From positions 1 through 34,389 of the IMG/VR virus record IMGVR_UViG_3300032050_000448: 34,389 bases of DNA; one strand, given 5' to 3'. The stretch comes from a virus. The position numbers were made by a program, and so were the translations under genes. The notes beneath the pieces were generated by a model, which saw only the letters and a program-made list of their open reading frames with translations, did not search any database and was not told the origin of the DNA. Shown here piece after piece: positions 9,001-34,389 of this stretch (the first letter of the stretch is position 1; every line of letters begins with the position of its first letter).

Positions 9001-12000
9001 CTCGTTTGCTAAGGCAGTATCATTCCATGAGTATACATATACCGCTGGATTAGTAGTTGGCTGAGAAATTACAAAAGTATTATTGTTATGTACAATTTTC
9101 TCACCAAAACTATCATCGTTAGTAATAGTTTCAGCTAGATCGTAATTTGCATTTTTGTAATAATATCTATAGACTGTACCCGTAGCTGAATCAGCAACTA
9201 GGTAACCGGCACTTTCTGTAAATGCAACGCTATTACCAAATGTACTTGAAGTGGTTGTGGATAGCTCACCCTGTCTAGCGTAGTTGATACCTTTTCTGTA
9301 TACTGCCCAACCACCGTCAGTATTTTCGTCTACCCAAACAGTGTTCTTGGTGAACTCAGCTTCTAGAAGAGGTAGAGTATTAATATCACCGGGCTGTGCG
9401 ACTCGCTGACTGTAGATTAACATACCTATGCCTGAACCAGTGATACCGCTTGATTCAAGACCAGAAACATTCAAGTTGATTATTACTTGATTCAAGTTAA
9501 CAATCTGAGTTACGATATAGTAACCGTCTACGTTTTCACTAAAGTTAACGATAGCGATTGGATCTAGATTCTTCAAGTTGTGTGGCTTACTAAATGTTAC
9601 TGTCGCAGTATTATTTAGGTTCGCTGCTACTTCAACTACTTCACCGATTGGGCTCCAAGAAAAGATTCCCCACTTTTCTTTAAAGCTTGCTAACCATAGA
9701 TAGTCTCTTACATAGAAATTCTGAATAGGAACAACTATGCCTTCTTTGTTGACACCGTTAGGCAATCCACCATAGTAGAAGGACGACATTTTCACATCGT
9801 TAAAGTTAGCATAACCGGCTGATGGGTACAGATTATTATATGGGTCAGTGGTTACTGCCAATACATTTGGATCAGTAATAGTATCACCGTAGTTAAACAA
9901 ACTATAGATAGGTACTTCTTGCTGTGCGCCTTCAGTGTAGACACCGTTAGTTAATGACACGATGCTTGGGTTACCGGTCAAAAGATTTTGGTCAACTCTA
10001 AACTCTACAAAGTTTTGACTTAGCAAACCACCATAGTCACCTGACTTGATTGCCCAGTTTTCATAAACTTCGTATTCAATGCCGCCCTGAGGCAAGTTAA
10101 CACCGTCAAATGCAGTTACAGCATTAACAGTACCCTTGTTCTTGATCATGTTCTTGTAGACATTGATTTGGGTAATGTCTGTCAAGTCTGCTAATGCGAG
10201 ATAATCTCTTGGGCGATAACCAATCAATGAGAATGATAGTAGGTCGGCGTCCTGTTCTAGATTAGCCTCATTGCAGTTGTAGTACAAAGTGCTTTCGAAA
10301 GAGCGGGTTGCTGAGTTAGGTAGTAGACCTTTCTGTACATCTTCATAATTGATTAACTTCCAATCAAGGTCGGTAAATGTAGTTGTTGGTTCTGACAATC
10401 TTAGGGCAGCGTAATACTTGTTCTTATGCAGAACAATTGAGCCCTTAGGATACTTGATATCCTTTGACCATTCTTTTACATTGTTCTGATTGATGATGAA
10501 GCCCCAAGCGTCAACGGTACCGTTCCACTCGCTAGTCTTAGTTCCGCGCAATGTGATTCTATTCTGTCTCAATCCAGTGACAAGATTATAGATAACGTCA
10601 TTGAATAGCGTGGTGTTGTTGAACACGATGCCATGCTCAAAGTTACTCACATTAAATTGTGCGAAAGCCATGCTATCGCCTTCGTTCAATGTATGGAGTT
10701 TAAACAGTGTGCCGTCACGATTCACGCAAAGAGTATTAATCTGAATGGGGTACAAGTCTTGGTTAAGAATGAAGTTCTGCTGCTGAATAGTTAGCGGCTG
10801 AACAATGCTGCCTTCTTTGTCAAAGACAAGGTCAGTAGCAGCAGGATTTAGCGTGATTAAGCTTCCGTCTTCCCAACCCATCTGAGTCCAATACATGAAT
10901 TGCTTTACCATCAATTCCCAATTGACTTCAGTACCAGCCTCAACTTCATTAAACTTCATACCCTTGTCTTTTAGGTATGCGTTATAGCTCATTAGGAATT
11001 GTGCAACTTCTTGTATACTATAGAATGTTGTTCCGTAAGGGACAAGTACTTCTTTAGCTGAATAGTCCGTAGCTAATTTTACTGTCTTTTCTAATACAGT
11101 AACAAATTCACTTCTACCGTTATTAACAGGTGCCTTAATTCTAAAGTAAGCAAAGGACTGTGAATTGCCAAAAACAGTAAATCCACCTTGAACAGTTTTC
11201 TGAATGATTACGCTAGAGAAAACTACCTTGTCGAATGGCTGGTTATCGTAAAGAAGAACCTGATAGCTCTCATCTGGAATCAATAGCGATGCATTAGCAG
11301 TGTTTGGTGAACCCTTTTCAACGTAGAACTTGAGCAATGTCTTGTCACTATAACCAGCAAGACGATATGCCAATCTAACGTCTAGATTGTTTAGAGTCTC
11401 TTTAATTTCGTGTGTAGCATCTACACCAAACTGCTTTTCATAGTCTACGATCCAGTTAATGTAACTGGTCTTGGCAATACCATCACCGTAAATTTGAACA
11501 TCACTAATAATCAAGTGGTCACGGTTGTTTACCAAATATTGATTAAATTCAGCATTGTATTTGTAGTTGTCTAGGTCAACTGCTAAGTTGTAGAACTCAG
11601 CAGGCTTTGTCATTGCAAACAGCTTGATAACGTCAAACGGATACGTTGAGCTACGACGATAGCTAAGTTCTGCGGGGCCATCGTCACCTACTTTCCAATC
11701 TTTCTGGAAAGTATTTGGATTATAGTTACCTACAATGCTAATCAACGGACTTAATAGTTCGCCGTTTGAATTGACCGGAATAATCTCTAAAAGACCTGGG
11801 CGGGCTAACTCAGGAACAATGACACTTGTGCCATCTGCTGAATATACTCTACCGGCTTCGAGGTCTCCCCACAATACTAAGTTGTCACTTGTGTATGGGG
11901 CGGGGCCATAGCGTTCTTCCCACCAAGTCGGCTTGTTGGCAAAGCCTAACATTTCCCATGGTGTTAAGTTAGGAGTAGTAGTGTCATATAGATATTGATA

Positions 12001-15000
12001 TGCACCTCTCCAATATCCCTGCAGGATCTGAGAATTATCTAGCTTGTTGCTTGAATTGGTGTAGTTATATGTGAACTCGTTATTTCTGTTGAAGAACTGA
12101 GTCTTGTAGTCAATTCTGTTCTGACCAACCCAATTCAAGAAATTAGTTGAATACATCTGCAACCATTCATCATATGAATAGTCACTGTCTCTGAAGAAGC
12201 CAGGCAATACATCATAGAGCTTGATTGGAACTTCTGTGCTTAGCTTAACGTTGTTGTAAACTCTCTTTTCAAATTCCAATAGTGCTTGGTCTCTGAAGTC
12301 TAGCAGAGTATTAGTTTGAGGGACGTAAGTGCCATATAGCTTTGTATATGAGCCGTCGTGTCCTTTAATGAAATATGTAGGTGTAGAATAGTTGCTATCC
12401 AATACAACACTAGGCTCGTACAGATCATAGAGTCCCAACTTACTTGGGGTATAAGGAACATATGAACCGTATGTCTGATTGTATTCTTTAACAATGATTT
12501 GATCACCGGGTACCAAATCTAAAGTAACGGTGACTGTTGGACTATCAGCACTGATAGTATAGTCTACATTTCTTAGAAGCTGTCTTTGTACTAGATTGTT
12601 ATTGACGGTTCTGTTCAAGTATACCAATACGCTATCATAGTTAGCTGATTCAAAATTATAAACTTTGTTTAACGGGTAGCGAGTTACGTCGGTATTACTA
12701 TTAAAGTTATATGTGTTTACTGCTAGAGGTGATCTGTTTGGCAACATGTCTGACCAGTAGAATGAGCTAATCTCACTCTTACTAGCTGCAATCAGTTCAA
12801 TAGCTTCGTCTAGGATTTCTGCTGGGGTGTTTCTAATAGTGAACTGAGCGTTTTGTACAGTATCAACCAATAGTTGCTTGAACTTGACATATTCATTGCC
12901 GTTAAACATCAATGCGTTTAATAGGTCGTATTTTGTTTTACGCAAGAACACGCCTGGTAGTACCATTGAAGCACTGTTCTGAATAATCTTAGTACCGTAT
13001 GGAGTTAAGTCACCGCAATCTCTATAGTTGTTTGAGCCAAAAATATCACCAGTAGTATTTGGTGCATTGACAAAGATATCTTGATAGTGATTGCGAATGT
13101 CACCCAAATCTGCTACAGTCAAGTCTTCGTTGAATGGGTTGCTATTCAAGTTGTCAGGAATCTGATAGAATCCGCTCTGGCTGACTTGGTCGCTCAAGAG
13201 CAATACTTGAATTACAGTGTCTACATCAGGAACAGTGTTTAACGTAATTCTAGTAACGGTATCAAAAAGCTCAACTGTGTAGTCGGTTGGTTCTAGATAT
13301 GTGTTATTGTTGTACACCTTTACTCTAGGCCAACCCTTAACATCAACTGGTAATTCAGGCAACGCAGCCACATCACAAACAAACTGAGTTGTTGGGTTGG
13401 CAATATTATATCTGAAGTTGAATTCTTGATACTGTACGCTATTTTCTACTGCTGTTACCCAGCCCAATTCTCTAGTAAAATTAATTCTGCTAATGTAATT
13501 GTGTACGTAGCCAGTGTTTACTTTCTGTGTTATTGATTCAATGCCGCGCACATAATTAAAGGTATCAGAATTGATAGTAACATCAAAGCTAATATCTCCA
13601 ATGTTGCCCACATCAGTGAATCTTACAGGGAATCCTAAGATAGGATCGTCAACTGTTAATGGATTAATGCCGTATGAAAACAGTGTAGTTCCAGTAAAGC
13701 TTGTGCTATTGTAAACTGTGCTATCGCTGAAGCTAATGCCGTTATCATCAAACGCATCAAACAGAGGGGCCTGATTAACAGTTACTTTCTGCTGAGCTTG
13801 CAGCCACTCAATACCGTCAAAGTAGAATGTCTTACCTTGCTCGTTGAAGCCTCTTGTAATGACAACCTGTTGGTCAACTTCAACATTAGTATCTTCAGCT
13901 TCAATCAATACAATCTGTGGGCTACCGCCTAAAGTAGTAACAACGATATCTACAACATAGATCTTATGCTTCGTGCCTTCGTCAGTGTCGTTAGAAAAGA
14001 TTATTCTTGATCCAGGGAACACTGCATAGTTGCTTACTGTAGTATCAGTACCAACGATTGATGTTGTTCCTCCAACAATGTCTTGTGGGAATGGATAACT
14101 AATCGTAAGTGTGGTAGTTGTTCCGTCATCAGTAAGATTGATAATCTGTGCGTTAGTAGGTATAATATCTAATACGTCACCGACATACATCCCGATTTGG
14201 AATATTCCAGTAACATCACTTGATGGTACAGTGATTGTGGCTTCGTCATATATTAAACGTCCAGTACCTGTGCCTGGCACTAGTAAATCGTTTCCGTCTT
14301 TAGCGCATACAATTTTGTCACCAGGAAAATATGTAACGCCCAAAGTTCCTGCTAGATCATTCCATGAAGTTTGCAAAGTACCACTAACATTGACTAGCTC
14401 ATAGGTGTTACCTTGCAACATGGATGCTACACCTACTACAGTATTTGGTGTGCTGGCAACAACCGCAGTGTTGCTAGTGTAAGTTTCTACGTCAGGATAG
14501 TAATTTGCTAATCCTGCAACCTGAGACAATGCATCTGTTGCACGAGTATCAAAGAAGTCAACTGGTCTCTTACCTTGAGTACCTGCATCAAACATTTTTA
14601 AGTTAGGATAAAACTCAATGATTGGTCTCTTAGCTTTGTTGTCAAGAGTTGCATATTCTGTCAAGATATTTGGATTATCATTATACTGTGCAGTGGCGTT
14701 GATAACGTCAATGTGGAACCATCTGTTGCTTCTTGACCATGCGTTCTTGCTAATACTATTTCTAGCAATAGTGATGTAGTCGGGGTCGACAGGAACAAAT
14801 AATTCTATGTCGTAGCCAGTATCATCATATCCAACAGTGTCGTATGGTATGAAGTCGCCTCTAGAGAATTTCTCAGGGACAATTAGTTCACTAACAGGAA
14901 CCAATTCAATTGCTGTGCCCACGCCCTCAACATAATATTCGCCTGAGCGATATGAATTAGGGAAGACGTTACCATCAAATTGAACTTTTAGTCCGTTCGT

Positions 15001-16629
15001 AAACTGTACGCCGTTCGGTGATGTATAAGTTGTTTTGCCTAAGATTTCTGTTTCAATATTAATAAAGTTGTCTAAATCAGAATCATTAATTTTAATTACG
15101 CCGACTTTATTTGGATTGGTCCCGTCTTGATAATATAATACGTCAAGCGGTGCAGTAATGATAGGTATCATACTAATGACACCTATAGTATTTCTGTAAA
15201 ATGATCTGCTGATGTACTCAGTACCAAATCTTGGAGAAATCTTTTCATTATTAGGAATAGTACCGTCCGGCAATAGTCTAATGATGGGGTTGTCGGGGTC
15301 ACCCAAATATTGAATTCTGTAGAAGTTCTCGCTTACTACTGTGTTAAATCCGTTCTGAAACTGTCCCTGATTGATGTTAACAATCATGTTGGCGCCTGAC
15401 TGAGTGAACACTGTAACAGTGTCGCCCTGAAGGTCTTGTGAAATAGTGAAGTCAGTTGAGTTGATAATGTCTTTTACAAAATATACTTGACCTTCAACAA
15501 TGCCACCTAATAGCACTCCGCTAAAGGTCACAGTTTGATTAGGAATTAGATCATCTGTGGTGAAACCTAATGCCATTGAAAGTCTATTACCACTAGCGTT
15601 TGTGCTGCCAACAGTAACAGTTCTAGGTTCTGTAAAGAACGGGTCGTTAACATCATAAAATGTTTCATCGTAATAAGATGCTACATATCCTTGCTCATCT
15701 GGCACGCCAGTGTCATAGAACATTATTCTTAGACCGTCTAATCCAGTCACGCCATCAATGTTGTCTAGCCCAGGATAGCTTATACCCGTTGCAATGTCAT
15801 TGATTGTGTATAGATTTCTACCATTGACTTCATCAAACGGAATATTGCAAATTACGTCAACCATATTGTTGCCAGGGAAAACAAATTGATCCTGTGCATT
15901 CTTGAATGGGACGTTGAATGTTACGATGCCTACTTCAGCACCGTTGTTGTCTACACCAAAAACTTCTCGTGTGGGTAGATTTTCTTGTGTGGGGGAAAAT
16001 CCACTAGTACCTGGCTCAGTCTGAATCCAAAACTGAGAGTTTTGATTTACTTCAAATCTATAAGTTCCTCCGCGAATCACTGAGATTGTTGGATTGGTTC
16101 CGGTTCCTATGATTGAGCCAACTTCACTAATTTCGTAACTATTAGCAAAGTCAGTTACGATATAATCTTGGTTGATGAATACTGTGCTAGGTGCAACAGT
16201 AACCGCTGGGGCGCCAATTGGCAACCAGTAATATTCATAATAGTTGACTAGCTTATCTAGATTTGTAAAGCTGTCCCATGAGTAAATTTGACTGTTGAAT
16301 AGTCTGTTGTTATTACCAGTGACCGCACCCTGTTGCTCTAGTGAATCAATAATGCCTGGGTATGTAATAAAATCATTAGCAATTTCTTCTTCTGCTCTTG
16401 TAAACACCACGCTTGGATCTAGCTGATAGTCTGCACGAGTTTTGGTTGGCTCAGTAACATAATAATCAAGCGCATTAATACCCGAACCAAATCTGCTTCC
16501 GACATAACCCTGCACACGAGTAGACGAAGGGTTACTTACGAGTCTATCAAGTGTAGCCGAGAGGAACTGACTGTTTGTTGGTGTTTGGAAGATTTCCGGA
16601 AGAAAGTTTAGTGTTCTAATACGTGCCAT
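1..16629 (-). CDS. Giant virion structural (baseplate/tail) protein, at least 5543 aa, 3' end outside window
   Basis: The frame opens at the ATG at 16629, 8 nt after the gp6 stop, and I found no in-frame stop down to base 1, so at least 5543 codons are present and the C-terminus is missing. The N-terminus (MARIRTLNFLPEIFQ, then a YYEYYWLP stretch near residue 130) resembles, from memory, the very large virion structural proteins encoded after gp6 in aquatic T4-like phages. Visible parts are an N-terminal half rich in aromatic residues, Asn and Thr; an FG-GAP propeller (about residues 2456-2747); repeated YYV modules (about 4183-5267); and a propeller with SxDGxxW motifs (about 4996-5368). No transmembrane segment, protease or enzyme motif was recognised. 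Position and size suggest an extended baseplate-attached or fibre-like component. It is probably co-translated with gp6, because no strong ribosome site or promoter is visible before it. The coding call is very safe; the structural role is inferred. Confidence 0.93.
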   Translation of the reverse strand, partial: MARIRTLNFLPEIFQTPTNSQFLSATLDRLVSNPSSTRVQGYVGSRFGSGINALDYYVTEPTKTRADYQLDPSVVFTRAEEEIANDFITYPGIIDSLEQQGAVTGNNNRLFNSQIYSWDSFTNLDKLVNYYEYYWLPIGAPAVTVAPSTVFINQDYIVTDFANSYEISEVGSIIGTGTNPTISVIRGGTYRFEVNQNSQFWIQTEPGTSGFSPTQENLPTREVFGVDNNGAEVGIVTFNVPFKNAQDQFVFPGNNMVDVICNIPFDEVNGRNLYTINDIATGISYPGLDNIDGVTGLDGLRIMFYDTGVPDEQGYVASYYDETFYDVNDPFFTEPRTVTVGSTNASGNRLSMALGFTTDDLIPNQTVTFSGVLLGGIVEGQVYFVKDIINSTDFTISQDLQGDTVTVFTQSGANMIVNINQGQFQNGFNTVVSENFYRIQYLGDPDNPIIRLLPDGTIPNNEKISPRFGTEYISRSFYRNTIGVISMIPIITAPLDVLYYQDGTNPNKVGVIKINDSDLDNFINIETEILGKTTYTSPNGVQFTNGLKVQFDGNVFPNSYRSGEYYVEGVGTAIELVPVSELIVPEKFSRGDFIPYDTVGYDDTGYDIELFVPVDPDYITIARNSISKNAWSRSNRWFHIDVINATAQYNDNPNILTEYATLDNKAKRPIIEFYPNLKMFDAGTQGKRPVDFFDTRATDALSQVAGLANYYPDVETYTSNTAVVASTPNTVVGVASMLQGNTYELVNVSGTLQTSWNDLAGTLGVTYFPGDKIVCAKDGNDLLVPGTGTGRLIYDEATITVPSSDVTGIFQIGMYVGDVLDIIPTNAQIINLTDDGTTTTLTISYPFPQDIVGGTTSIVGTDTTVSNYAVFPGSRIIFSNDTDEGTKHKIYVVDIVVTTLGGSPQIVLIEAEDTNVEVDQQVVITRGFNEQGKTFYFDGIEWLQAQQKVTVNQAPLFDAFDDNGISFSDSTVYNSTSFTGTTLFSYGINPLTVDDPILGFPVRFTDVGNIGDISFDVTINSDTFNYVRGIESITQKVNTGYVHNYISRINFTRELGWVTAVENSVQYQEFNFRYNIANPTTQFVCDVAALPELPVDVKGWPRVKVYNNNTYLEPTDYTVELFDTVTRITLNTVPDVDTVIQVLLLSDQVSQSGFYQIPDNLNSNPFNEDLTVADLGDIRNHYQDIFVNAPNTTGDIFGSNNYRDCGDLTPYGTKIIQNSASMVLPGVFLRKTKYDLLNALMFNGNEYVKFKQLLVDTVQNAQFTIRNTPAEILDEAIELIAASKSEISSFYWSDMLPNRSPLAVNTYNFNSNTDVTRYPLNKVYNFESANYDSVLVYLNRTVNNNLVQRQLLRNVDYTISADSPTVTVTLDLVPGDQIIVKEYNQTYGSYVPYTPSKLGLYDLYEPSVVLDSNYSTPTYFIKGHDGSYTKLYGTYVPQTNTLLDFRDQALLEFEKRVYNNVKLSTEVPIKLYDVLPGFFRDSDYSYDEWLQMYSTNFLNWVGQNRIDYKTQFFNRNNEFTYNYTNSSNKLDNSQILQGYWRGAYQYLYDTTTPNLTPWEMLGFANKPTWWEERYGPAPYTSDNLVLWGDLEAGRVYSADGTSVIVPELARPGLLEIIPVNSNGELLSPLISIVGNYNPNTFQKDWKVGDDGPAELSYRRSSTYPFDVIKLFAMTKPAEFYNLAVDLDNYKYNAEFNQYLVNNRDHLIISDVQIYGDGIAKTSYINWIVDYEKQFGVDATHEIKETLNNLDVRLAYRLAGYSDKTLLKFYVEKGSPNTANASLLIPDESYQVLLYDNQPFDKVVFSSVIIQKTVQGGFTVFGNSQSFAYFRIKAPVNNGRSEFVTVLEKTVKLATDYSAKEVLVPYGTTFYSIQEVAQFLMSYNAYLKDKGMKFNEVEAGTEVNWELMVKQFMYWTQMGWEDGSLITLNPAATDLVFDKEGSIVQPLTIQQQNFILNQDLYPIQINTLCVNRDGTLFKLHTLNEGDSMAFAQFNVSNFEHGIVFNNTTLFNDVIYNLVTGLRQNRITLRGTKTSEWNGTVDAWGFIINQNNVKEWSKDIKYPKGSIVLHKNKYYAALRLSEPTTTFTDLDWKLINYEDVQKGLLPNSATRSFESTLYYNCNEANLEQDADLLSFSLIGYRPRDYLALADLTDITQINVYKNMIKNKGTVNAVTAFDGVNLPQGGIEYEVYENWAIKSGDYGGLLSQNFVEFRVDQNLLTGNPSIVSLTNGVYTEGAQQEVPIYSLFNYGDTITDPNVLAVTTDPYNNLYPSAGYANFNDVKMSSFYYGGLPNGVNKEGIVVPIQNFYVRDYLWLASFKEKWGIFSWSPIGEVVEVAANLNNTATVTFSKPHNLKNLDPIAIVNFSENVDGYYIVTQIVNLNQVIINLNVSGLESSGITGSGIGMLIYSQRVAQPGDINTLPLLEAEFTKNTVWVDENTDGGWAVYRKGINYARQGELSTTTSSTFGNSVAFTESAGYLVADSATGTVYRYYYKNANYDLAETITNDDSFGEKIVHNNNTFVISQPTTNPAVYVYSWNDTALANELLLAQTIAAPGGVTDWGSELAISGDGNWVYISDTLNTQVYVYRKNNQEFSAGYFVPTQTYVITELGTTDFTAIGAIENSVGITFEATGIGTGTGTAINTTYELVNIIENPDIVTAGSFVIGEEYKIVSLGNTDFTLVGAASNNVGVVFTATGIGAGTGTASAQSNSFGTAISTDFDSDCLFIGAPNKDYSVSVTNWGEVYFYQRSVQNFESTAVSTLTQPQFFALGWTPDTATKAVTATSDSTDRITLANVSGISVNDAITFEGTGLAGTDIIAYKTYYVAQVFPMSNAITIKESRSKANTDIVQLSTVSSISNATAHVQSELLLVNVNGRMVQDNNYAVVGSSLVYTGSLNAGDIVEVSGNDFYNVQTFNAASNSAINIQFGYDLDVTRQASELLIGSPFEIDSENREGLVYRFTNGGARFGIVAGENQCFLSTTRSILINGYQVTLAAGTAAAVANQIVNSRVPNITASATTDNKLIIQVVDPNLAEINNQLMVTAFDTATLDELGISVYSPTQVIPCPHKEGPTEFGKTIKFNQFDSVVIAAPAGPNFVATTFDFTDDENLDNDTVFDNNATRFVENYPNAGAVYMFDLLTNNNGSLSNPGAFVYAQPSNSANLDFVINPYYGEAVDFYDNVVIVGAPNQIINPSSVGQVTTFVNATGVRDWSEYRQSAPIVDINKIQNTQLFSASTNNTLINLDYMDPLQDKLLGAIRENIDYVSPEDPAKYNVDPLNVSANVWGSLQVGKIWFDTSTVRFVNYHQNDVVYNSEYWGTVFPGSDISVCTWVASNVLPGQYQGPGTPIDPTKYAVGSRLNASNIVTPVYYFWVRNSGLIVKEREKTLSDAVLASYIANPQSSGIAYMAPLLPNTFALYNSAEYINDIDSVFHIGFATNQDTDVPHNEFKLIRQNFPDDFLPGLMPGEEPFSLYARMLDSLSGTTISGEIVPNPFLPLAVQSGVLSRPRQSFFYNRFEALKNYLTYANAVLAQYPITEIKPDISFAFVSDEFYNTADYWEYINWWAPGYNNSTRAFAQVPLYADLAELTVNPGTLIKVDNNGSGSFEIYRYDGEGVWTRVGLENGTIAFSSALWEYAKFGLGYGNDFYDTIPYDDYPSEATRNIIRLLNEQIYTQELLIHRNKSLILLLEYIQTETIESQNYLPWLSKTSLMDVFHTVRELRPFEVFKSDNVEFLEGYINEVKPYHVVLKEFLIKYDGMEVYDGNITDFDVPATYNTNFDQYISPQLVFTDPDNEYQYDETSPIWSTAPYTQWYQNYGLSLTGQENYLITTLKSYMDLGSNVMLVDNASGFPSNGVIQIDQEIISYAFVDRNLNLLGGLSRGFNNSQVSEHIPDSDIFIDLPAVVVLDEGSGYTQVPRVTAYVDTALYPAPRTEAILQAVMSGGRVSSVQVIDPGEGYVVLPEIRIDSAYTIPFSDTDINASLNTININAPFLRTGEIVKFNSGTDGAKPTNLVDDSWYYVGVLESLPSVIIALYTNYSDAVKDQNRINIAPGLASNDMTLSPGARASTITSSAPTRENNITLRFDRTTYNSQVIDWESGTFYGAFFAGTYYNSDKISSSAITLENTEPDINTILASAQGVALQISDVTDEEELVWSAFTRYVSGTSSVDNSISLIPQDGNNPDLSELEPNASGTTIGFYIGMPIKFVGTIVGGLSEGVTYYVSEIIDEIKFSVSDTINGSTRVLNNGTVNARLLECYTGNINETVIVSVDYPGIIEATQTEGVINAITAPLSPVGTGGTIGFYTNLPVFFTGNVFGGIIENFNYYVTSVIDNQTFTISETPNPVTVTVTQTKASGNSLVVSTINGISRNDPIIITSLTGGLATSGIVAGRTYYVSQLINPTELTISEVVNGPVLSVASRVGTAVLTNQKDTVKLTNATGSMTMNVSLPVSPGQVDGQLFTLYKTSGQFTDITPSGANYSDLIERPIRATIGTVNKIAISENDGGTFNFYVNMPIQVLSNVGGLVTGTTYFVTEYSGMVDPLDSELTLPNIQVEVTNTSDIGNVLTCTVDLLRGFDGTDSLYEKMPITFQGTGLGGIVIDQEYYVKTIVSATQFTVSEVVDGPVKVLTLANGLMVGTGDPYITVSTSKGGSSVALTDDNSATSSFTQFITVDPVFDLSYLLGGYNAIISTPGEGFAISNTILIPGTAVDGTSPANDILLTVNTIDEDGGITSVIRSGTPPSVANQYYMQVRSANTLAVYKNSLLTIPATPAEFDYVGYTTATVTETQTSTDIITVNSTAEFAVNDAVVFTGDVTGGMNLGQTYYILDNGNFTATTLQISDTPGGSVIPLSTATSQNYSMAKLGSVAFLPEPFFFNQSIVRFNNRVYVCVVSNNDDEFIFGKWELLDSGDRRLNAMDRVIGYYQPTSNMPGVDLQQLFEGTTYPNPIYQGNNFDPNLQYGVDTILTPLPFYPSEVDISGIIWNGDNYLASANLPGYNAILTSEDGETWTINQLTNNNINTTSISQLNGFYFLTSANPTVPLLRSVNGVAWSAVSYFVPFGTTELELQNLAALNIPSLSLNDVAYCTTGDAWVSVGRNILRSEDGIVWRELTEFNPSLEYNLNAVSSVTGANCLGLVAVGKGKQPDYSTGVTQLVDVGLIFYSQNSVNWNQIQPLTSNGLYGVSSDGTTVIAVGERQVIYYTQNGFDWLGLNEVGCVFVDSINNYLNVTNTAGFTDGSLGTPVRFNNSFSTIVANTTYYVKEIISQTQVTLSSTLDGSVLTLSSASIPDNTRMFVYDASDPIPATLNDILYANSLWITVGNEGTIKTSTDGIVWETRTSNTTNNLDNVTYNEDQGVFVVVGENNTILTSADGISWEETSVFDPIVPVYDVKGANFQFGYAPEELVAGVVSDNLALIVNTRPGSNWPVVEYGHTGFNVNSIEVAPINATQLEYSFANLANVPVTLRVQVINGTTELGTTLSPDAYTIDWINKKIILDQAISFSPRLDKLRIDVYEAGNGDQLVKASTDTYPIITDSDFGFREINLSCNYSA
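526..1644 (-). repeat. Seven SxDGxxW-type propeller blade motifs inside the giant protein
   Basis: Within the giant reading frame, seven short motifs of the form [ST]-x-[DN]-[GS]-x-x-W recur. In N-to-C order: SEDGETW (1624-1644), SVNGVAW (1498-1518), SEDGIVW (1327-1347), SQNSVNW (1144-1164), TQNGFDW (1027-1047), STDGIVW (649-669) and SADGISW (526-546). The best copies are preceded by VGNEGTIKT or VGENNTILT, the usual form of blades in YCF48/BNR (Asp-box) related beta-propellers. Spacing is about 40 to 60 residues, except for a gap between copies five and six where a YYV-type module (around 830-960) sits. I infer one propeller of about seven blades with an inserted domain. Such propellers often bind ligands or partner proteins; no catalytic residues were identified. 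Confidence 0.75.
830..4080 (-). repeat. Array of degenerate YYV-type modules in the giant protein
   Basis: At least seven diverged modules of roughly 70 to 100 residues share the pattern GG(I/V)-x-x-G-x-x-YYV-x-x-(I/V) followed by a T-x-(F/L)-(T/S)-(I/V)-S strand. The YY/YF positions are near 877, 2175, 2838, 3058, 3469, 3670 and 3984 (minus strand). Further relatives occur near 8166 and 15482 in the same protein. The pattern suggests tandem small beta-sandwich or beta-prism domains such as occur in phage tail structural proteins. DNA identity between copies is low, so this is an old protein-level repeat and not a recent DNA duplication. The fold and function are inferred. Confidence 0.6.
8389..9264 (-). 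other. FG-GAP-like (integrin-alpha type) beta-propeller in the giant protein
   Basis: Four blade-like segments are readable in N-to-C order: TFGNSVAFTES..YLVAD (near 9180-9250), SFGEKIV..TFVIS (near 9060-9110), WGSELAIS..WVYISD (near 8900-8970), and FGTAIST..LFIGAPNKD followed by GEVYFYQR (near 8389-8512). Each blade ends in a VYVY, VYRY or VYFY strand. The FG(x)2(V/A)(A/I)(x)n(I/V)GAP signature is that of FG-GAP repeats, which form seven-bladed propellers. Classical calcium ligands are not clearly retained in all blades. Two Gly/Thr-rich modules (8521-8853) split the array between the third and fourth visible blades. A binding or architectural role is inferred. Confidence 0.65.
8521..8853 (-). 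repeat. Two tandem copies of a 65-residue TDFT-x-(I/V)GA module
   Basis: Two consecutive copies (8716-8853 and 8521-8658) lie 195 bp apart in the giant frame. Both follow the pattern (G)xFVxxxxYxIxxxG(T/N)TDFTxxGAxxNxVGxxFxATGIGxGTGTA. From memory, the same module recurs in structural and fibre proteins of many aquatic phages. Here it is inserted between blades of the FG-GAP propeller, so it may be a loop-displayed domain. DNA identity is modest, which indicates an old duplication. Confidence 0.7.
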
Positions 16630-29465: not shown

Positions 29466-30362
29466 ATGGCAGCTAAACCAAAAAAAATTAACTATCTAAA
29501 TAACAAAGACATTCTAAAAGAAATTCACAAAAGCAAAACCACATATTGCTCATTCGTAGATCCGGAGTACCATAGATACGATATCATCATTGATATGCCC
29601 GACAGCGAACTAACCACTAGTTTAGAATATGCGCTGAAACCAGAACAGATTCAACAAGCAAAAGAAACAAGAGCAATTAGGCTAACACAAGAAACCGGCG
29701 AGAAAGTATTAGCCGAAGACATTCCAACTACTGATTTGATTTTTCGTGTAATGACATGGGAGCATGTTCCAATGTCACAGAAGCAACCTAGAAAAACAAC
29801 CAAGAAAAAAACAGCCAAAGATATTTTTGTCTTTGAAGATGATGACGAAGATATCTTCTCTGATTTGGAAGACAAGACCACTAAGAAAGACGTTGACGAT
29901 ATGGTCCATGTCAAGGTCAACTTCCCTCCTTTCCAGCACTACAAGTTAGACGAAACTAACTCATTCATCTGCGTTGGTAAGAGTCACTGGGAAGGCGGTA
30001 TGGAGAACGGTCACTTCAACAAAGATCATGGGCAAATCACTAATAAGTTAGCGAGAATGTATATGATGCTTTGTGAGAAGTATTCAATGAAGTTTAACTG
30101 GAGAGGTTATACTTACCGTGATGAGATGGAAGCAAGTGCTATTCTACAGTTAACATATGTTGGTCTTAGATTCAATGAAGCAAAGAGTGCTAATCCATTC
30201 GCATACTATACAGCAGCAGTAAACAATAGTTTCTGTAGAGTGTTGAATACTGAAAAGCGAAGCCAAAACATTCGTGATGATATCTTAGAAATGAACGGGT
30301 TCAATCCAAGCTTTAGCCGTCAGATGAGCGGCAAGAAATTGGGTCAAGGACTCGCAGATTAG
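29466..30362 (+). CDS. Late-transcription sigma factor gp55-like
   Basis: This 298-residue protein looks like the T4 gp55 family, the phage sigma factor that directs host RNA polymerase to TATAAATA late promoters. The N-terminal NYLNNKDILKEI corresponds to the start of T4 gp55. Residues about 188-270 (ITNKLARMYMMLCEKY, WRGYTYRDEMEASAILQLTY, NPFAYYTAAVNNSFCRVL) form the sigma region 2-like helices. Between them lies an insertion of about 160 residues absent from T4 gp55 (185 aa). It includes FRVMTWEH, a Lys-rich patch, an acidic DDDEDIFSDLED stretch and a CVGKSHWEGG segment. The T4 C-terminal sliding-clamp motif (hydrophobic FLYE-like) is not obvious; the end is SGKKLGQGLAD. It is the first gene of the rightward block, with its own promoter and good AAAGGA site. 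Confidence 0.85.
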   Translation: MAAKPKKINYLNNKDILKEIHKSKTTYCSFVDPEYHRYDIIIDMPDSELTTSLEYALKPEQIQQAKETRAIRLTQETGEKVLAEDIPTTDLIFRVMTWEHVPMSQKQPRKTTKKKTAKDIFVFEDDDEDIFSDLEDKTTKKDVDDMVHVKVNFPPFQHYKLDETNSFICVGKSHWEGGMENGHFNKDHGQITNKLARMYMMLCEKYSMKFNWRGYTYRDEMEASAILQLTYVGLRFNEAKSANPFAYYTAAVNNSFCRVLNTEKRSQNIRDDILEMNGFNPSFSRQMSGKKLGQGLAD

Positions 30363-30374
30363 GTCACCAAACTG

Positions 30375-30414
30375 TTTGCTTTTTACGTTCATACCTAGTA
30401 TAAGTTAGAGTATG
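30375..30414 (+). promoter_or_regulatory. Promoter-like element and leaderless-type start of gp47
   Basis: TATAAG (30399-30404) lies 7 nt before the gp47 ATG, with TTGCTT (30376-30381) 17 nt upstream of it. Transcription would begin at or next to the ATG. The upstream TTTGCTTTT (30375-30383) resembles a T4 MotA middle-promoter box, but the spacing is a little long. The block TATAAGTTAGAGTATG is nearly identical to the one at the nuclease gene further right. No ribosome site at normal spacing is present. Confidence 0.5.
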
Positions 30415-31428
30415 AAAACTCTATTCAAGAAGGCAGCAGTCTTCACCGACATTCACTTTGGGCTTAAGTCTAACAGTGTACAACATAACCAAGATTGTTC
30501 AGACTTTGTTGACTGGTTTATTCAGAAAGCAAAAGAAGAAAATTGCGAAACTTGCTTTTTCTTAGGTGATTACAATCACCATAGAGCAAGTATCAATATT
30601 CAAACTATGCAGTTTGGTCTTCGTGCTTTAGAAAAGCTAAACAATAGTTTTGAGCATGTCTATTTCATTCCGGGCAATCACGACCTCTATTATAGAGACA
30701 AGCGTGATGTTCATAGTGTTGAATGGGCGAAGCATCTACCTAACGTAACAATCGTTAATGACTGGTTCATTCAAGATGAGGTAGTCATTGCTCCTTGGTT
30801 AGTCGGTGAAGATCATAAGAAGCTATCTAAGCTTTCAGGCAAGTATTTGTTTGGTCACTTTGAGCTTCCTGCATTCTACATGAATGCTATGGTTCAGATG
30901 CCCGATCACGGTGATGTGAGCGACAATGACTTAGCTGGCTTTGAGAAAGTATTCAGCGGTCACTTCCACAAGCGTCAAGCACGTAACAACATTTGGTACA
31001 TCGGAAACGCTTTCCCTCACAACTATGCAGATGCGGGCGACGATGCTCGTGGTATGATGATTCTTGAATGGGGCGAAGAGCCTGAGTTTCACGCATGGCC
31101 TGGGCAACCACTATTTCGTGTCTATAAGCTTAGTGACATACTAGATAACCCAGAAGGCTTGCTTCTTCCTAAGAGTAGTGTTAGAGTGCATCTTGATATT
31201 GATATCTCATACGAAGAAGCTAACTTCATTCGTGAGACATTGATTCCAAAGCACAACATACGAGAAATGTCACTTATCCCGATGAAGCTAGACCAACACA
31301 GTCAAGACTTAGCCCCAGGTGAGGTAAACTTTGAAAGTGTTGACCAGATTATTATTGATCAAATTTCTGCTATTGAGAGCGACTTCTTTGATCCAAAAGT
31401 ATTGTTAGAGATTTATAGAAACCTATGA
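30412..31428 (+). CDS. Recombination endonuclease subunit gp47-like (Mre11/SbcD family)
   Basis: This 338-residue metallophosphoesterase is the nuclease partner of gp46, processing DNA ends for recombination-dependent replication and host DNA breakdown. All nuclease motifs are visible: FTDIH (D13, H15), LGDYNH (D53, N55), PGNHD (N89, H90, D91), GHFE (H149) and GHFH (H184, H186). Length equals that of T4 gp47 (about 340). The ATG at 30412 fits the family start and is preceded by the TATAAGTTAGAGT element. The last four bases ATGA overlap the gp46 start, so the two subunits are translationally coupled. Confidence 0.95.
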   Translation: MKTLFKKAAVFTDIHFGLKSNSVQHNQDCSDFVDWFIQKAKEENCETCFFLGDYNHHRASINIQTMQFGLRALEKLNNSFEHVYFIPGNHDLYYRDKRDVHSVEWAKHLPNVTIVNDWFIQDEVVIAPWLVGEDHKKLSKLSGKYLFGHFELPAFYMNAMVQMPDHGDVSDNDLAGFEKVFSGHFHKRQARNNIWYIGNAFPHNYADAGDDARGMMILEWGEEPEFHAWPGQPLFRVYKLSDILDNPEGLLLPKSSVRVHLDIDISYEEANFIRETLIPKHNIREMSLIPMKLDQHSQDLAPGEVNFESVDQIIIDQISAIESDFFDPKVLLEIYRNL

Positions 31429-33512
31429 GCGTTGCATTAAAGAACATTACCCTACGAAACTTTCTTAGTATTGGTGCAGTAACACAAGCAGTAAACTTTG
31501 ACAGTAAAGAACTTACACTTATTCTAGGTGAGAACCTTGACTTAGGTGGTGACGGTGCCAGAAATGGTACTGGTAAGACTACACTAATTCAAGGCTTGAG
31601 CTATGTATTGTTTGGTAACCCTATCAATCAGATTCGTAAGGACAATTTGATCAATCGTACTAACGCTAAGGGTATGATGGTTACTCTTGAATTCAGTGTC
31701 AATGGAACCGAATACAAGATTGAACGTGGTAGAAAGCCTAATATTCTTCGTTTCTACGTAAACAACAGTTTGCAGAATAACAAAGAAGATAAGAACGAAT
31801 CTCAAGGTGAGAACAGAGAAACGCAGTTAGCGATTGAACACGCTATTGGCATGAGTAGTGATATGTTTAAACATATCGTTGCTCTCAACACCTATAGTGA
31901 ACCCTTCTTGTCAATGAGAGCTAATGATCAGCGCAATGTCATTGAACAGTTGCTCGGTATCACATTGCTATCTGAGAAGGCAGACTTGATCAAAGAAAAG
32001 ATTAGATTGAACAAGGATGCTATTCAACAAGAAGAATTCAGAAACAGAGCAGTTGAAGAAGCCAATAGTCGTGTTCAAGAACAGATTGATGGACTCAAGC
32101 GCCGTCAGAGATTGTGGCAGAAGCAACACGACGAATCATTGAACAAGCTTGTGCTTGATTACGATGAACTTAGCAAGATTGACATTGAAGCCGAACTTCA
32201 AGCGCACAAAGATTTAGCAGTCTATCTTGACTTGAAGCAAAAGCAGGAACGCTATGAAGCTATCTTAGCTCGACAAACTTCCTGGAAACAAAAGCTTGAC
32301 AGCGATGTTGCTGCATTGCAGGTTCAATATGATACGTTAAGCCATATTGATATTACGGCTGAGTTGCAATCTCACTTTGACCTTAAGGTCTATGAGGCTA
32401 ACAAGCTAGAGCTTGCAAATATAAACAAGACCATTACAACGCTTGAGTCTTCTTTGAAGAAGGATAAAGCACTTGTTGATAAGCTTGAACAAGAAATCAA
32501 GACACTTGAAGATAACAAGTGCTATGCTTGCGGTCAAGACTTCCACGATGAGAATCATACGAATGTTATCAACAGCAAACGTGAACTTCTTGTTAGCGCA
32601 ATTGAAGAACTTGCCCAAACCCAAAACTCTTTAGAAAAAAATAAAAATTCTGTATTCGTTTTGGGCGAGAAGCCAACTACGCATTACAAGACTGAGGCAG
32701 AAGCAATCAAGCATAGTTCTGAACTTGAAAGATTGCAGCAACAGATTGAAGCGAAGAAGAACGAAGATGATCCTTATGCAGATCAGTTGATTGAAAATGC
32801 TTGTGTGAGCGTAGGCACTCGTCCAGTCACACATTATGACACTGAGGCAGAAGCAATTGAGCATCGCACAGTCGTTGACAATCTAGAGAAAGCTATTGCA
32901 ACTAAGGCAGAAGAAACTGACCCATATCATGAACAGATTATTGATATGGAAAGTCGTGCGTTACAAACAATTACATTTGACAAGATTAACGAGCTAAGTA
33001 AGTACGGTGATCACTTGAAGTTCTTACTTGATATTCTCACGAGCAAGGATAGCTTTGTACGTAAAAAGATTATTGACCAGAACTTGAGCTACCTGAATGC
33101 AAGATTAACTCATTATCTTGATAAGATAGGATTGCCCCATACCGTTGTCTTCAAGAACGATCTATCGGTTGAAATTACCGAACTCGGGCGTGAGCTTGAC
33201 TTTGACAATCTATCTCGCGGTGAGCGGAACCGACTTATTCTTGGATTAAGTTTTGCGTTTCGTGATGTGTGGGAAAATCTATACTTCCCAATCAACACAC
33301 TATTCATTGACGAACTTATAGACAGCGGTATGGATACCATCGGTGTTGAAAACTCAATGGCTATTCTCAAGGATATGTCACGTAGACGCAACAAGTCTAT
33401 CTGGTTAGTAAGTCACAGAGAAGAACTAGCAGGACGTGTCCCGAGTGTTCTCAAAGTGCTGAAAGAAAATGGGTTCACAACCTACAGCACAGCTACAGAT
33501 GACGTAGAATAA
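31425..33512 (+). CDS. Recombination ATPase subunit gp46-like (Rad50/SbcC family)
   Basis: This 695-residue SMC-like ATPase works with gp47. It shows Walker A GARNGTGKT (about 44-52), a Q-loop region near 150, long coiled-coil arms (about 185-530), a zinc hook CYACGQDFH with C366 and C369, the ABC signature LSRGERN (596-602), Walker B TLFIDE (625-630) and an H-loop SH (663-664). T4 gp46 is about 560 residues, so the arms are longer here. Two internal duplications explain part of this: LSKIDIEAELQAH and LSHIDITAELQSH before the hook (56 residues apart), and two HYxTEAEAIxH blocks after it (50 apart). It starts inside the gp47 stop (ATGA). Confidence 0.95.
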   Translation: MSVALKNITLRNFLSIGAVTQAVNFDSKELTLILGENLDLGGDGARNGTGKTTLIQGLSYVLFGNPINQIRKDNLINRTNAKGMMVTLEFSVNGTEYKIERGRKPNILRFYVNNSLQNNKEDKNESQGENRETQLAIEHAIGMSSDMFKHIVALNTYSEPFLSMRANDQRNVIEQLLGITLLSEKADLIKEKIRLNKDAIQQEEFRNRAVEEANSRVQEQIDGLKRRQRLWQKQHDESLNKLVLDYDELSKIDIEAELQAHKDLAVYLDLKQKQERYEAILARQTSWKQKLDSDVAALQVQYDTLSHIDITAELQSHFDLKVYEANKLELANINKTITTLESSLKKDKALVDKLEQEIKTLEDNKCYACGQDFHDENHTNVINSKRELLVSAIEELAQTQNSLEKNKNSVFVLGEKPTTHYKTEAEAIKHSSELERLQQQIEAKKNEDDPYADQLIENACVSVGTRPVTHYDTEAEAIEHRTVVDNLEKAIATKAEETDPYHEQIIDMESRALQTITFDKINELSKYGDHLKFLLDILTSKDSFVRKKIIDQNLSYLNARLTHYLDKIGLPHTVVFKNDLSVEITELGRELDFDNLSRGERNRLILGLSFAFRDVWENLYFPINTLFIDELIDSGMDTIGVENSMAILKDMSRRRNKSIWLVSHREELAGRVPSVLKVLKENGFTTYSTATDDVE

Positions 33513-33535: not shown

Positions 33536-33551
33536 TATAAATTAGAGTATG
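33536..33551 (+). promoter_or_regulatory. TATAAATTAGAGTATG start-site element of the nuclease gene
   Basis: TATAAA (33536-33541) is followed by TTAGAGT and the ATG, matching 15 of 16 bases with the element before gp47. Read as a -10 box, it places the transcription start on or next to the ATG. The first eight bases, TATAAATT, also match the T4 late box at seven of eight. No good -35 is seen at 16-18 nt, which fits a late-type promoter. No ribosome site at usual spacing is present. Confidence 0.5.
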
Positions 33552-34097
33552 CCGAGTCCACAGAAAGCTAAGGGTTCTTCTTTTGAACGAGAGATTGCAA
33601 CCTTCTTAACAAAGACGTATAACGAAAGTTTTATTAGAGCGCCCGGAAGTGGTGCTTATGTGGGAGGCAAGAATCAGTCTCGTAAAGAATTTCTTCATGA
33701 AGGACAAGTTAGAAGCTTTAAGGGCGATATCGTACCTGGACAGTCTTTTACTAAGTTCAACGCAGAATGCAAAAGTTATGCCGACTTTCCGTTTCACTTG
33801 TTAATGACAGGTGAATGCAAAGTTATTGATGGCTGGATCAAGCAACTAATGGATGTTGCTGAAACCGACGATTGCTCTATTCTGTTCATGAAGTTCAATA
33901 GAAAAGGCAAGTTTGTTGCTGTAGAATCTAAGTTCACTTGGGTCGCAGACAACTTCATCCACTACCGTTCCGAAACAGCAGGTGAGTGGATCATTATGGA
34001 ACATGAACACTTTTTTAAACTCAACAAAGACCTTCTTAAAATTTACTCAGGCTCAAACGACACCAAGTCAGATGAAATCTTGACAATCAATATTTAA
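33549..34097 (+). CDS. Hjc-like PD-(D/E)XK nuclease (possible Holliday junction resolvase)
   Basis: This 182-residue protein shows the archaeal-Hjc-type nuclease pattern: KGSSFEREIATFL with E13, RAPGSGA (30-36), KGDIV with D60, and the catalytic AECKSY with E73 and K75. Such enzymes cut branched DNA or Holliday junctions using two metal ions. It follows gp46 by 36 nt on the same strand, so a role with gp46/47 in recombination, repair or DNA packaging preparation is a fair inference. In T4 that resolving role belongs to the unrelated endonuclease VII (gp49). Alternatives are a general restriction-like or VRR-type nuclease. Residues after about 110 resemble an extra C-terminal domain that I do not recognise. 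Confidence 0.7.
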   Translation: MPSPQKAKGSSFEREIATFLTKTYNESFIRAPGSGAYVGGKNQSRKEFLHEGQVRSFKGDIVPGQSFTKFNAECKSYADFPFHLLMTGECKVIDGWIKQLMDVAETDDCSILFMKFNRKGKFVAVESKFTWVADNFIHYRSETAGEWIIMEHEHFFKLNKDLLKIYSGSNDTKSDEILTINI

Positions 34098-34108
34098 ACT
34101 CTTAATAC
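34080..34108 (+). promoter_or_regulatory. Promoter candidate for the downstream structured RNA
   Basis: TTGACA (34080-34085, 6/6) lies inside the last codons of the nuclease gene. It is followed after 17 nt by TAATAC (34103-34108), which matches the -10 consensus at only 3/6. Transcription would start near 34115, just ahead of the first hairpin. The perfect -35 and exact spacing support it; the weak -10 argues for caution. Confidence 0.35.
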
Positions 34109-34114
34109 AGAACC

Positions 34115-34389
34115 CTTCTACATCGACATGACTGTTACTACAGTCCTCCTTGAGGCTGCACCACGAATGAATGCGGCTGGATCTGGAGTATGCCTAGGAG
34201 CGATCCTAGGGAACACCGACAAGGCTCTCGCACGGTAGGCGAACCTTGAATGAGTCTATAGATATTCTGTCTTGATGCTATAGAACATGCGTTGCCGAAG
34301 AATAGAGTGAGTTCCACTCTATAGCTTCACTACAACCCAGTAAACTTTACAGGGCAACCGGTGGCGTTACACAGCATGTAAAGCTAGTG
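34115..34389 (+). ncRNA. 5' part of a large structured noncoding RNA, continuing beyond the window
   Basis: No convincing gene is present, but the plus strand holds consecutive strong hairpins. GACTGT/ACAGTC has loop TACT (34130-34145). GGCTGC/GCGGCT has two G-U pairs (34154-34178). CCTAGGA/TCCTAGG has a GCGA tetraloop (34193-34210). AAGG-TCGC/GCGA-CCTT (34221-34247). TCTATAG/CTATAGA (34255-34284). GAAG-ATAGAGTG/CACTCTAT-CTTC has a five-base loop (34297-34328). CTTTACA/TGTAAAG (34345-34383) could be closed by CACTA/TAGTG (34328-34332 with 34385-34389). The GNRA loop and G-U pairs favour the plus strand. No T-arm consensus, anticodon arm, group I core or tmRNA end was found. Large phage RNAs such as GOLLD or ROOL are possible relatives, but I cannot match a consensus. 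The 5' end is estimated from the promoter-like element. Confidence 0.6.

Follow-up and report, generated by a model that had tools for sequence, protein, structure and literature searches.

A probable large noncoding RNA of T4-like freshwater phages with links to the orphan RNA family Polynucleobacter-1

RESULTS

Noncoding DNA dense in hairpins follows a recombination nuclease gene

What occupies the noncoding DNA at the 3' end of the viral contig IMGVR_UViG_3300032050_000448? The window analyzed here is this whole record of 34,389 bases. It comes from a T4-like phage, with baseplate proteins encoded on the minus strand. On the plus strand, a gene for a gp55-like late sigma factor (positions 29466 to 30362) is followed by genes for SbcD/SbcC-like recombination nuclease subunits resembling gp47 and gp46 (30412 to 33512). 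The last gene encodes a PDDEXK_15 nuclease of the RusA-like resolvase family (33549 to 34097; PF24608, E = 6.4e-23; phrog_244, E = 1.6e-17). A sequence-only reading had proposed that the nucleotides directly behind this gene, 34098 to 34389, belong to a large structured RNA of unknown class with its own promoter. The observation was sound and its interpretation largely right: the structured RNA stood, and the promoter did not.

We found no ORF of at least 60 amino acids overlapping 34098 to 34389, and none that spans the element in 104 homologous elements, as that reading had held. The longest stop-free plus-strand stretch in the homologous elements was 32 to 99 amino acids (median, 49). A crude ORF caller gave a coding fraction of 0.85 to 0.98 in 15 related phage contigs. 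Since phage genes are packed so tightly, a noncoding RNA of about 460 nucleotides (nt) conserved across divergent freshwater phages would imply an important job. Elsewhere in the window, the minus strand of positions 1 to 16629 is one open frame of 5,543 amino acids that runs off the record and probably encodes a giant structural protein.

Homologues of the element share a covarying fold

A search with the nuclease returned at least 80 viral loci, and blastn with the 292 bases behind the gene matched 43 of the best 80 at 69 to 97% identity. In the sequences behind the nuclease, the stems change on both sides. The closest of the listed nuclease relatives, locus L002 (98% nuclease identity), holds the whole RNA element (L002:4563-5030). 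A scan for the core pattern, made independently of the nuclease, found at least 120 viral stretches, and a few of those listed sit on contigs of about 250 to 525 kb. Elements of this kind, here called family A, are 414 to 568 nt long (median, 460) when counted from an assumed 5' end, which agrees with the several hundred nucleotides first supposed. Homology to complete copies by blastn and covariance model, together with covariation, places the 5' part of a family-A RNA at 34108 to 34389 on the plus strand of the window, with an approximate 5' end. The rest lies beyond the record, which ends inside hairpin P9; the element does run off the window, as had been noted.

After removal of duplicates, elements with short flanks, L123 and L141 (no recognizable start), and L200, 104 sequences remained. 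These were reduced to 82 at 92% identity, of which 74 entered alignment A1, a separate alignment used for the helix count, and 42 entered alignment A2. An earlier set of 68 sequences had a median pairwise identity of 58%. In the 74 sequences, 92.5% of cells were paired, compared with 78.8 ± 0.3% in shuffled and 32.5 to 43.6% in slid controls. Two-sided changes were seen in 807 cells (239 shuffled, 70 to 145 slid), and 51 of the 72 pairs had such changes (38.4 shuffled). The covariation score was 0.418, compared with 0.165 for shuffled and 0.049 to 0.086 for slid controls. None of 500 shuffles reached the paired fraction, pair count, two-sided cells, or score of the family-A fold. We also used a tree-based null, a G-test in which substitutions were re-dealt among columns along a FastTree tree in 40 replicates. 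Beyond it, 25 column pairs were significant at E <= 0.025 in the 82 sequences; 22 were pairing columns, and the other three were two cross-echoes inside P6 and one identity pair. When runs of compatible columns were sought separately, P2, P2a, P3, P4, P5, P6, P7, P9, P11, and two pseudoknots were recovered.

The core covariance model R1, built from 42 sequences, matched window positions 34214 to 34363 at 154 bits (E = 2.7e-36). Folding energy agreed for the complete L002 element (-140.8 kcal/mol; z = -3.07; 0 of 100 shuffles as good), whereas the piece in the window alone gave a modest signal (z = -2.06; 7 of 200 shuffles as good). Covariation is the decisive evidence, and because of it we regard the structured RNA as confirmed: judged from aligned sequences, the window RNA is almost certainly real and conserved. 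The outcomes named at the outset as refuting the sequence-only reading (lack of covariation, a folding energy no better than that of shuffles, or an ORF across the stems) did not occur.

A closed core is tied to downstream strands by two pseudoknots

All features of the fold lie on the plus strand. Near the 5' end, hairpin P1 (GACTGT/ACAGTC; 34130 to 34145) is present with changed sequence in the rows of A1 by eye; like P8, it stands outside the helix count. P2 (34146 to 34188) pairs CTCC (34146 to 34149) with GGAG (34185 to 34188), is helix 1 of the count, and is 99.7% paired. It encloses P2a, helix 2 (34154 to 34160 with 34172 to 34178; 85.3% paired). P3 (34193 to 34210) is a hairpin of 7 bp with a GCGA loop of the GNRA type; it is 87.5% paired, with two-sided changes in all four counted pairs.

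The core is closed by P4 (34214 to 34363), in which CACCG (34214 to 34218) pairs with CGGTG (34359 to 34363). P4 is 97.0% paired, with a two-sided change in one of its five pairs and four pairs invariant. Within it, hairpin P5 (34220 to 34248; 34220 to 34224 with 34244 to 34248) is 99.7% paired, with two-sided changes in four of five pairs. Its inner TCG/CGA pairing (34228 to 34230 with 34240 to 34242) scored 35.6% as helix 6, which was mapped one column off. Hairpin P6 (34250 to 34288) joins 34250 to 34252 with 34286 to 34288 and 34255 to 34260 with 34279 to 34284, is 99.4% paired, and has two-sided changes in nine of nine pairs. Its loop holds the 5' strand of the pseudoknot PK1 (CTGTCT, 34267 to 34272; 98.2% paired; two-sided changes in five of six pairs), whose partner, AGACAG in L002, lies beyond the window. 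P7 (34291 to 34358) pairs GTTGCC (34291 to 34296) with GGCAAC (34353 to 34358), is 95.9% paired, and has two-sided changes in three of six pairs. P8, a two-part hairpin of 12 bp (GAAG plus ATAGAGTG; 34297 to 34328), is variable and at times reduced in relatives, as seen in the rows of A1. The 5' strand of PK2 (CCC, 34336 to 34338; 98.2% paired; two-sided changes in four of four pairs) also lies inside P7, and its partner GGGG is beyond the window. P9 (34364 to 34389), cut by the record end, is 91.9% paired, with two-sided changes in 10 of 11 pairs. The stems first read from the window, including the GNRA hairpin and the 12-bp stem, are thus in place.

In complete copies, the core is followed by P9 and then by a region in which hairpin P11 is flanked by two copies of a short word. 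PK1 runs from the P6 loop to a strand after P9, and PK2 runs from inside P7 to a strand directly before the partner of PK1. The covarying fold therefore has a closed core (P4 to P7) tied to two downstream strands. Two terminal hairpins close 62 of the 80 testable elements. By eye, the terminal hairpin motif stands just after the RNA in 13 of 15 contigs (G019 has none, and G021 has none at the RNA). The motif is not enriched phage-wide, with 18 matches in the 15 contigs versus 23 in one mononucleotide shuffle of each. We rejected a phage-wide terminator since shuffled contigs give as many matches.

No Rfam model matches the window RNA

None of the 4,227 families of Rfam 15, with GOLLD, ROOL, and OLE among them, matched the window RNA at the gathering threshold. 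The gathering scan covered the window and 16 loci, and a scan at E <= 10 covered the RNA element. The latter gave one chance match in 33900 to 34389, upstream and on the other strand. In the 16 loci, the only Rfam matches to the RNA were to RF01718, in four. The earlier label of an unknown class is therefore correct for Rfam models run on the window, and it gives way where intermediates link the RNA to an orphan family, Polynucleobacter-1 (RF01718). We found no recognizable description of the window RNA in a literature scope that leaves out preprints and most subscription papers; within that scope, one paper uses the name Polynucleobacter-1.

The window presumably ends in bases like those of a transfer-messenger RNA (tmRNA), and we therefore began with that reading. 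It was rejected: ARAGORN found no tmRNA in the window or 59 loci, Rfam gave no tmRNA match to the RNA element, and L002 has no tRNA-like end by eye. A group I or group II intron was rejected as well, as there was no Rfam match and the RNA lies after a complete nuclease gene and, in L002, before a convergent gene. ARAGORN found no tRNAs in the 59 loci. At the scale of 15 related phage contigs, it found 28 to 41 tRNAs in G016, G003, and G022 (L434-L439, L510-L515, and L504-L509) and few or none in most of the others.

Searches beyond metagenomic phages were negative for family A. Its pattern had 0 matches in 84,980 bacterial and archaeal species genomes. Among 50,697 isolate phages, blastn gave no match to window 33549-34389 at E 1e-5 and none to the L002 element at E 10. 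R1, run without a positive control, had 0 matches in 398 genomes from one bacterial family. A scan of the species genomes with the second-type pattern (described below) gave 67 matches, of which L401 alone has a matching word pair; we judged the others to be chance.

The RNA and the nuclease gene are neighbors in phages and also occur apart

Of the at least 120 RNA-pattern loci, 97 of those listed have 700 nt or more of upstream sequence and represent 77 distinct cores; every one of the 97 has the nuclease gene ahead of the RNA in the same orientation. The nuclease match ends 219 to 438 nt before the RNA core. This constant order means that the RNA may be the tail of the nuclease transcript, so that in phages the independent transcript first suggested is one of two possibilities. 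Starting from 123 distinct nuclease loci, we found a family-A core within 1.7 kb in 60, a second-type core in 40, and neither in 18; five were too short for the check, leaving 118 testable. Two of the 18, L257 and L337, were later recognized by profile, and the nuclease stands without a recognized RNA in 16 of the 118 testable contig loci. In L048 and L053, the RNA starts about 0.8 kb past the nuclease match. The nuclease was also matched in 56 isolate phage records, all at <60% identity. We inspected three of the 13 records whose coverage reached 80% or more: Pseudomonas phage PA5oct, Salicola phage SCTP-2, and Sinorhizobium phage Phosso. In these, the next gene begins 2 to 24 nt after the nuclease, and the RNA models gave no significant match behind it in any of the three.

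Two observations on the nuclease loci stand apart. A TAA lies inside the nuclease match at G013:C1:50200-50745 (the record of L142) and at G021:C1:12283-12795 (the record of L059), possibly where the match runs past the end of the gene. Behind more distant nuclease relatives, L046:3110-3750 and L049:4499-5150 are long, noncoding-looking stretches that are alike by eye; they gave no match to Rfam or to the family-A or second-type profiles.

The proposed promoter was not borne out. At the start of the RNA in L002 there is no convincing site, and among the upstream regions of 100 elements, 11 contain TTGACA and 3 contain TATAAT. A scan of L002 positions 4000 to 5300 gave six weak (9/12) matches over both strands, compared with 2.0 ± 1.4 in shuffles. 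The lone plus-strand match near the start of the RNA sits inside the element (4569 to 4596), and the others are not just before the RNA. A simple scan of the same stretch found no terminator-like site.

A second RNA type links family A to Polynucleobacter-1

At the same place, more distant phages carry a second type of RNA whose core is similar (TACAGGNCAACCG) and whose 3' part follows the same plan. By eye, P2 and P7 of the second type use other base pairs; P2 reads CACC/GGTG in L210 and CCCA/TGGG in L208. Behind the nuclease, Rfam recognizes RF01718 over 141 nt in 4 of the 16 tested loci (L050, L052, L056, and L062). Run against 50 loci, a profile of the family-A 5' domain matched eight of the second type at E values of 1e-10 to 2e-4; its ninth match was the family-A locus L257. 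Seven of these eight second-type loci supplied a 3'-half profile, which matched 22 of 39 other loci, and it matched L052, L056, and L050 at E values of 7e-20 to 1e-12. It did not match the RF01718-bearing L062, the family-A controls, or the chromosomal copies described below. The family-A core model had no significant match in second-type loci, and solely the window, L257, and L033 reached E < 1e-7. RF01718 did not match the window at gathering (37 bits), nor did it match 33900 to 34389 or L002 4540 to 5080 at E <= 10. Because of the 5'-domain match and the chain of profile matches, we treat family A and the second type as kin. As far as profiles reach, family A, the second type, and the RF01718-bearing RNAs are shown to form one superfamily.

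The likeness to Polynucleobacter-1 thus has several parts. RF01718 lies behind the nuclease in 4 of 16 loci, three of these four share the second-type 3' half, and the CTC/TCT word plan described below is found in five of six chromosomal copies. Polynucleobacter-1 was listed in 2010 under Burkholderiales from fresh water and estuary, according to the part of that report consulted (PMC2864571), a freshwater setting like that of the window RNA. The two differ in that RF01718 is 141 nt long and covers the 5' end alone, where family A has a different 5' domain. Taken at the level of homology, the comparison indicates that RF01718 would be the 5' part of a larger RNA.

Chromosomal copies lie in candidate satellite islands

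We sampled 398 genomes of the family to which a Caballeronia genome belongs, and six held RF01718 above its cutoff, on contigs of 1.8 to 2.2 Mb. These six chromosomes presumably belong to Polynucleobacter or close kin. The nuclease was not found in any of the six, in a search that detected the phage positive control. That nuclease-free chromosomes carry a related RNA favors action in trans. In the four 18-kb stretches that we inspected (L529, L530, L531, and L532), the RNA lies near a DUF6641 gene and a gene for a 188-amino-acid tyrosine recombinase. A second integrase is encoded there as well, along with an AAA ATPase that has the clamp loader of DNA polymerase as its top PHROG; the island proteins recur across the four stretches. 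Among 15 phage contigs, three hold distant matches to the ATPase (24 to 27% identity). We infer that the RNA-bearing islands are candidate phage satellites. With integrases and a phage-like replication protein beside the RNA, these putative satellites would resemble the PLE of phage ICP1.

A fast-changing word is repeated on both sides of P11

The identity pair among the significant column pairs joins columns 305 and 362 of family A. These carry the same letter in 73 of 82 sequences (GG in 41, CC in 18, TT in 11, and AA in 3), with the second-highest covariation score of all pairs and 0% base pairing. The two columns, which fall past the end of the window, open a short direct repeat (~xCGGCAA) that flanks P11. 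The longest shared word in family A averaged 5.63 nt, compared with 5.19 (maximum, 5.40) when second copies were swapped between phages; it is shorter and looser than the word of the second type.

In second-type and chromosomal RNAs, a 7-nt repeat follows CTC and TCT. The two words are identical in 34 of 43 such loci, with 13 kinds of word; when the loci are limited to <90% similarity, the count is 31 of 37. After dinucleotide shuffling of the word regions, identical pairs averaged 0.02 in 43 and never exceeded 1. The nine loci without an identical CTC/TCT-framed word include the chromosomal L528 and all three L074-type loci. The chromosomal copies change both words together (AACAAAA, AGCGAAA, and AGAGAAA) in five of six, L528 being the exception. 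In loci preselected for at least six of seven matching letters, 34 of 35 were identical versus a swapped mean of 4.1. Because this preselection favors agreement, we report the unselected 34 of 43 with its shuffle control. To our knowledge, two identical, fast-changing words occur in no other large noncoding RNA.

We found no consistent complement tracking the word changes within the RNA or about 1 kb around it. Across 15 contigs, a word was no more enriched in its own phage than in contigs carrying other words. Family-A words did exceed the Markov expectation in their own contigs (14 to 26 seen, 6 to 7 expected, in G001, G003, G022, and G024; 23 seen and 6 expected in G022), and words exceeded it in contigs with other words too (GCGGCAA in G016, 44 seen and 14 expected). 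By eye, 19 of 36 intergenic word copies are the RNA's own, and the remainder share no common context. A search of 25 phage records, many of which are fragments, found none with the reverse transcriptase domain RVT_1 (PF00078); controls were positive in 3 of 14. Identity without a complement suggests either two binding sites for one partner or copying that jumps.

DISCUSSION

We propose, and consider likely, that T4-like freshwater phages encode a noncoding RNA of ~460 nt that acts in trans and that the feature in the window is its first ~280 nt. Action in trans, taken by itself, is quite probable on the genomic evidence. The RNA would be made either as the last piece of a gp55-gp47-gp46-nuclease transcript or from an unrecognized promoter, and it would act as RNA or as a ribonucleoprotein particle. 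More tentatively, the pseudoknotted core may be a scaffold that holds the two single-stranded word copies at a fixed distance. One kind of partner might then be bound twice, as two copies of a protein or nucleic acid or as the halves of a dimer. Such two-site binding would account both for the coupling of the words and for the hairpin that separates them; we consider it possible but less likely than not.

The neighbors gp46/47, gp55, and the clamp-loader-like protein point to replication, recombination, or late expression. Because the related RNAs lie in islands with integrases and a clamp-loader-like ATPase, the partner may be a component that the phage uses in DNA replication, recombination, or late expression and that a phage satellite would gain from exploiting. 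The link of the RNA to replication or late expression is possible and rather doubtful. These findings connect the orphan Rfam family RF01718 with lytic-type phages and place it in bacterial islands resembling phage satellites, so that its function can be tested from both the phage and the island sides. For the mechanism, the two identical words and their rapid change offer a specific and falsifiable starting point.

A broader idea, which we would not bet on, is that T4-like phages and satellite islands share the superfamily and that its specificity is set by the self-identity of the word, used in recombination-dependent replication or late expression. Here a ~7-nt, fast-changing word is the same in two places, with no complement found in cis. 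A strand might transfer between the copies, or both might pair with one coevolving partner, and satellites would have copied or captured the RNA machine.

It is also possible, though unlikely, that the element acts in cis as a 3' untranslated region, a folded tail that stabilizes the nuclease transcript or terminates transcription where convergent genes meet. Such a role would fit the same-strand nuclease gene ahead of the RNA in 97 of 97 listed testable loci, the lack of a convincing own promoter, the convergent gene after the RNA in L002, and the two hairpins that end 62 of 80 elements. However, two pseudoknots and a closed core would seem to far exceed what a stabilizer or terminator needs, and the simple scan of L002 4000-5300 found no terminator-like site. 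Related RNAs are also present in six nuclease-free chromosomes and about 0.8 kb from the nuclease in L048 and L053.

We give a similarly low rating to the idea that the element, like GOLLD or ROOL, is an ornate phage RNA that forms a homo-oligomeric cage or ring. In the part of PMC12286853 consulted, GOLLD and ROOL are described as large, pseudoknotted, encoded by phages and prophages, and of unknown function. The window RNA resembles them in its phage origin, large size, and pseudoknots (PMC12286853, in part). It is shorter, at ~460 nt compared with 659 and over 800, and lies beside a recombination nuclease, whereas theirs is a place in tRNA islands; its relatives have a duplicated word, which the same part of PMC12286853 does not mention for GOLLD or ROOL. 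No Rfam model matches, and 0 of 59 loci scanned with ARAGORN have a tRNA, unlike the tRNA-island position of GOLLD and ROOL.

Both of these readings are better placed than a partnership with the neighboring enzyme, in which PDDEXK_15 and the RNA form a complex and the repeated word reads a target. The adjacency in 97 of 97 listed loci and the guide-like variation of the word between phages are what it would predict. IS607 TnpB with its RAGATH-18-derived RNA likewise joins a nuclease gene to a structured RNA that keeps its place downstream, as far as the consulted part of PMC11061315 goes. But the protein here is PD-(D/E)XK and resolvase-like, and no guide-target match or common target was found in 15 phage contigs. 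The nuclease (in three isolates, with no RNA behind it) and the RNA (in six chromosomes) each occur alone, and vertical descent of neighbors explains the adjacency. We consider such a complex very unlikely.

Marginally less probable still is a strand-transfer template, in which a polymerase would copy the region of the hairpin and switch from one of the identical words to the other, the words having to match only each other. Identical words with no complementary third strand are the pattern that such a jump requires, but RVT_1 was found in none of 25 phage records, and a host or other enzyme would be required.

A self-splicing intron, another ribozyme, or a tmRNA is the least probable reading; the double-pseudoknot topology is loosely like that of group I introns, which counts in its favor, but there is no Rfam match, ARAGORN found none in the window or 59 loci, and the RNA lies between genes. 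As a separate observation, permuted tmRNAs are present at L432:3933-4213 (plus strand) in G001, the closest relative of the window, and at L480:16-391 (minus strand) in G012. They score over the cutoff for RF04321 and RF01849, and ARAGORN reads their tags as VAANDNNVDLALAA and ANDEQFALAA.
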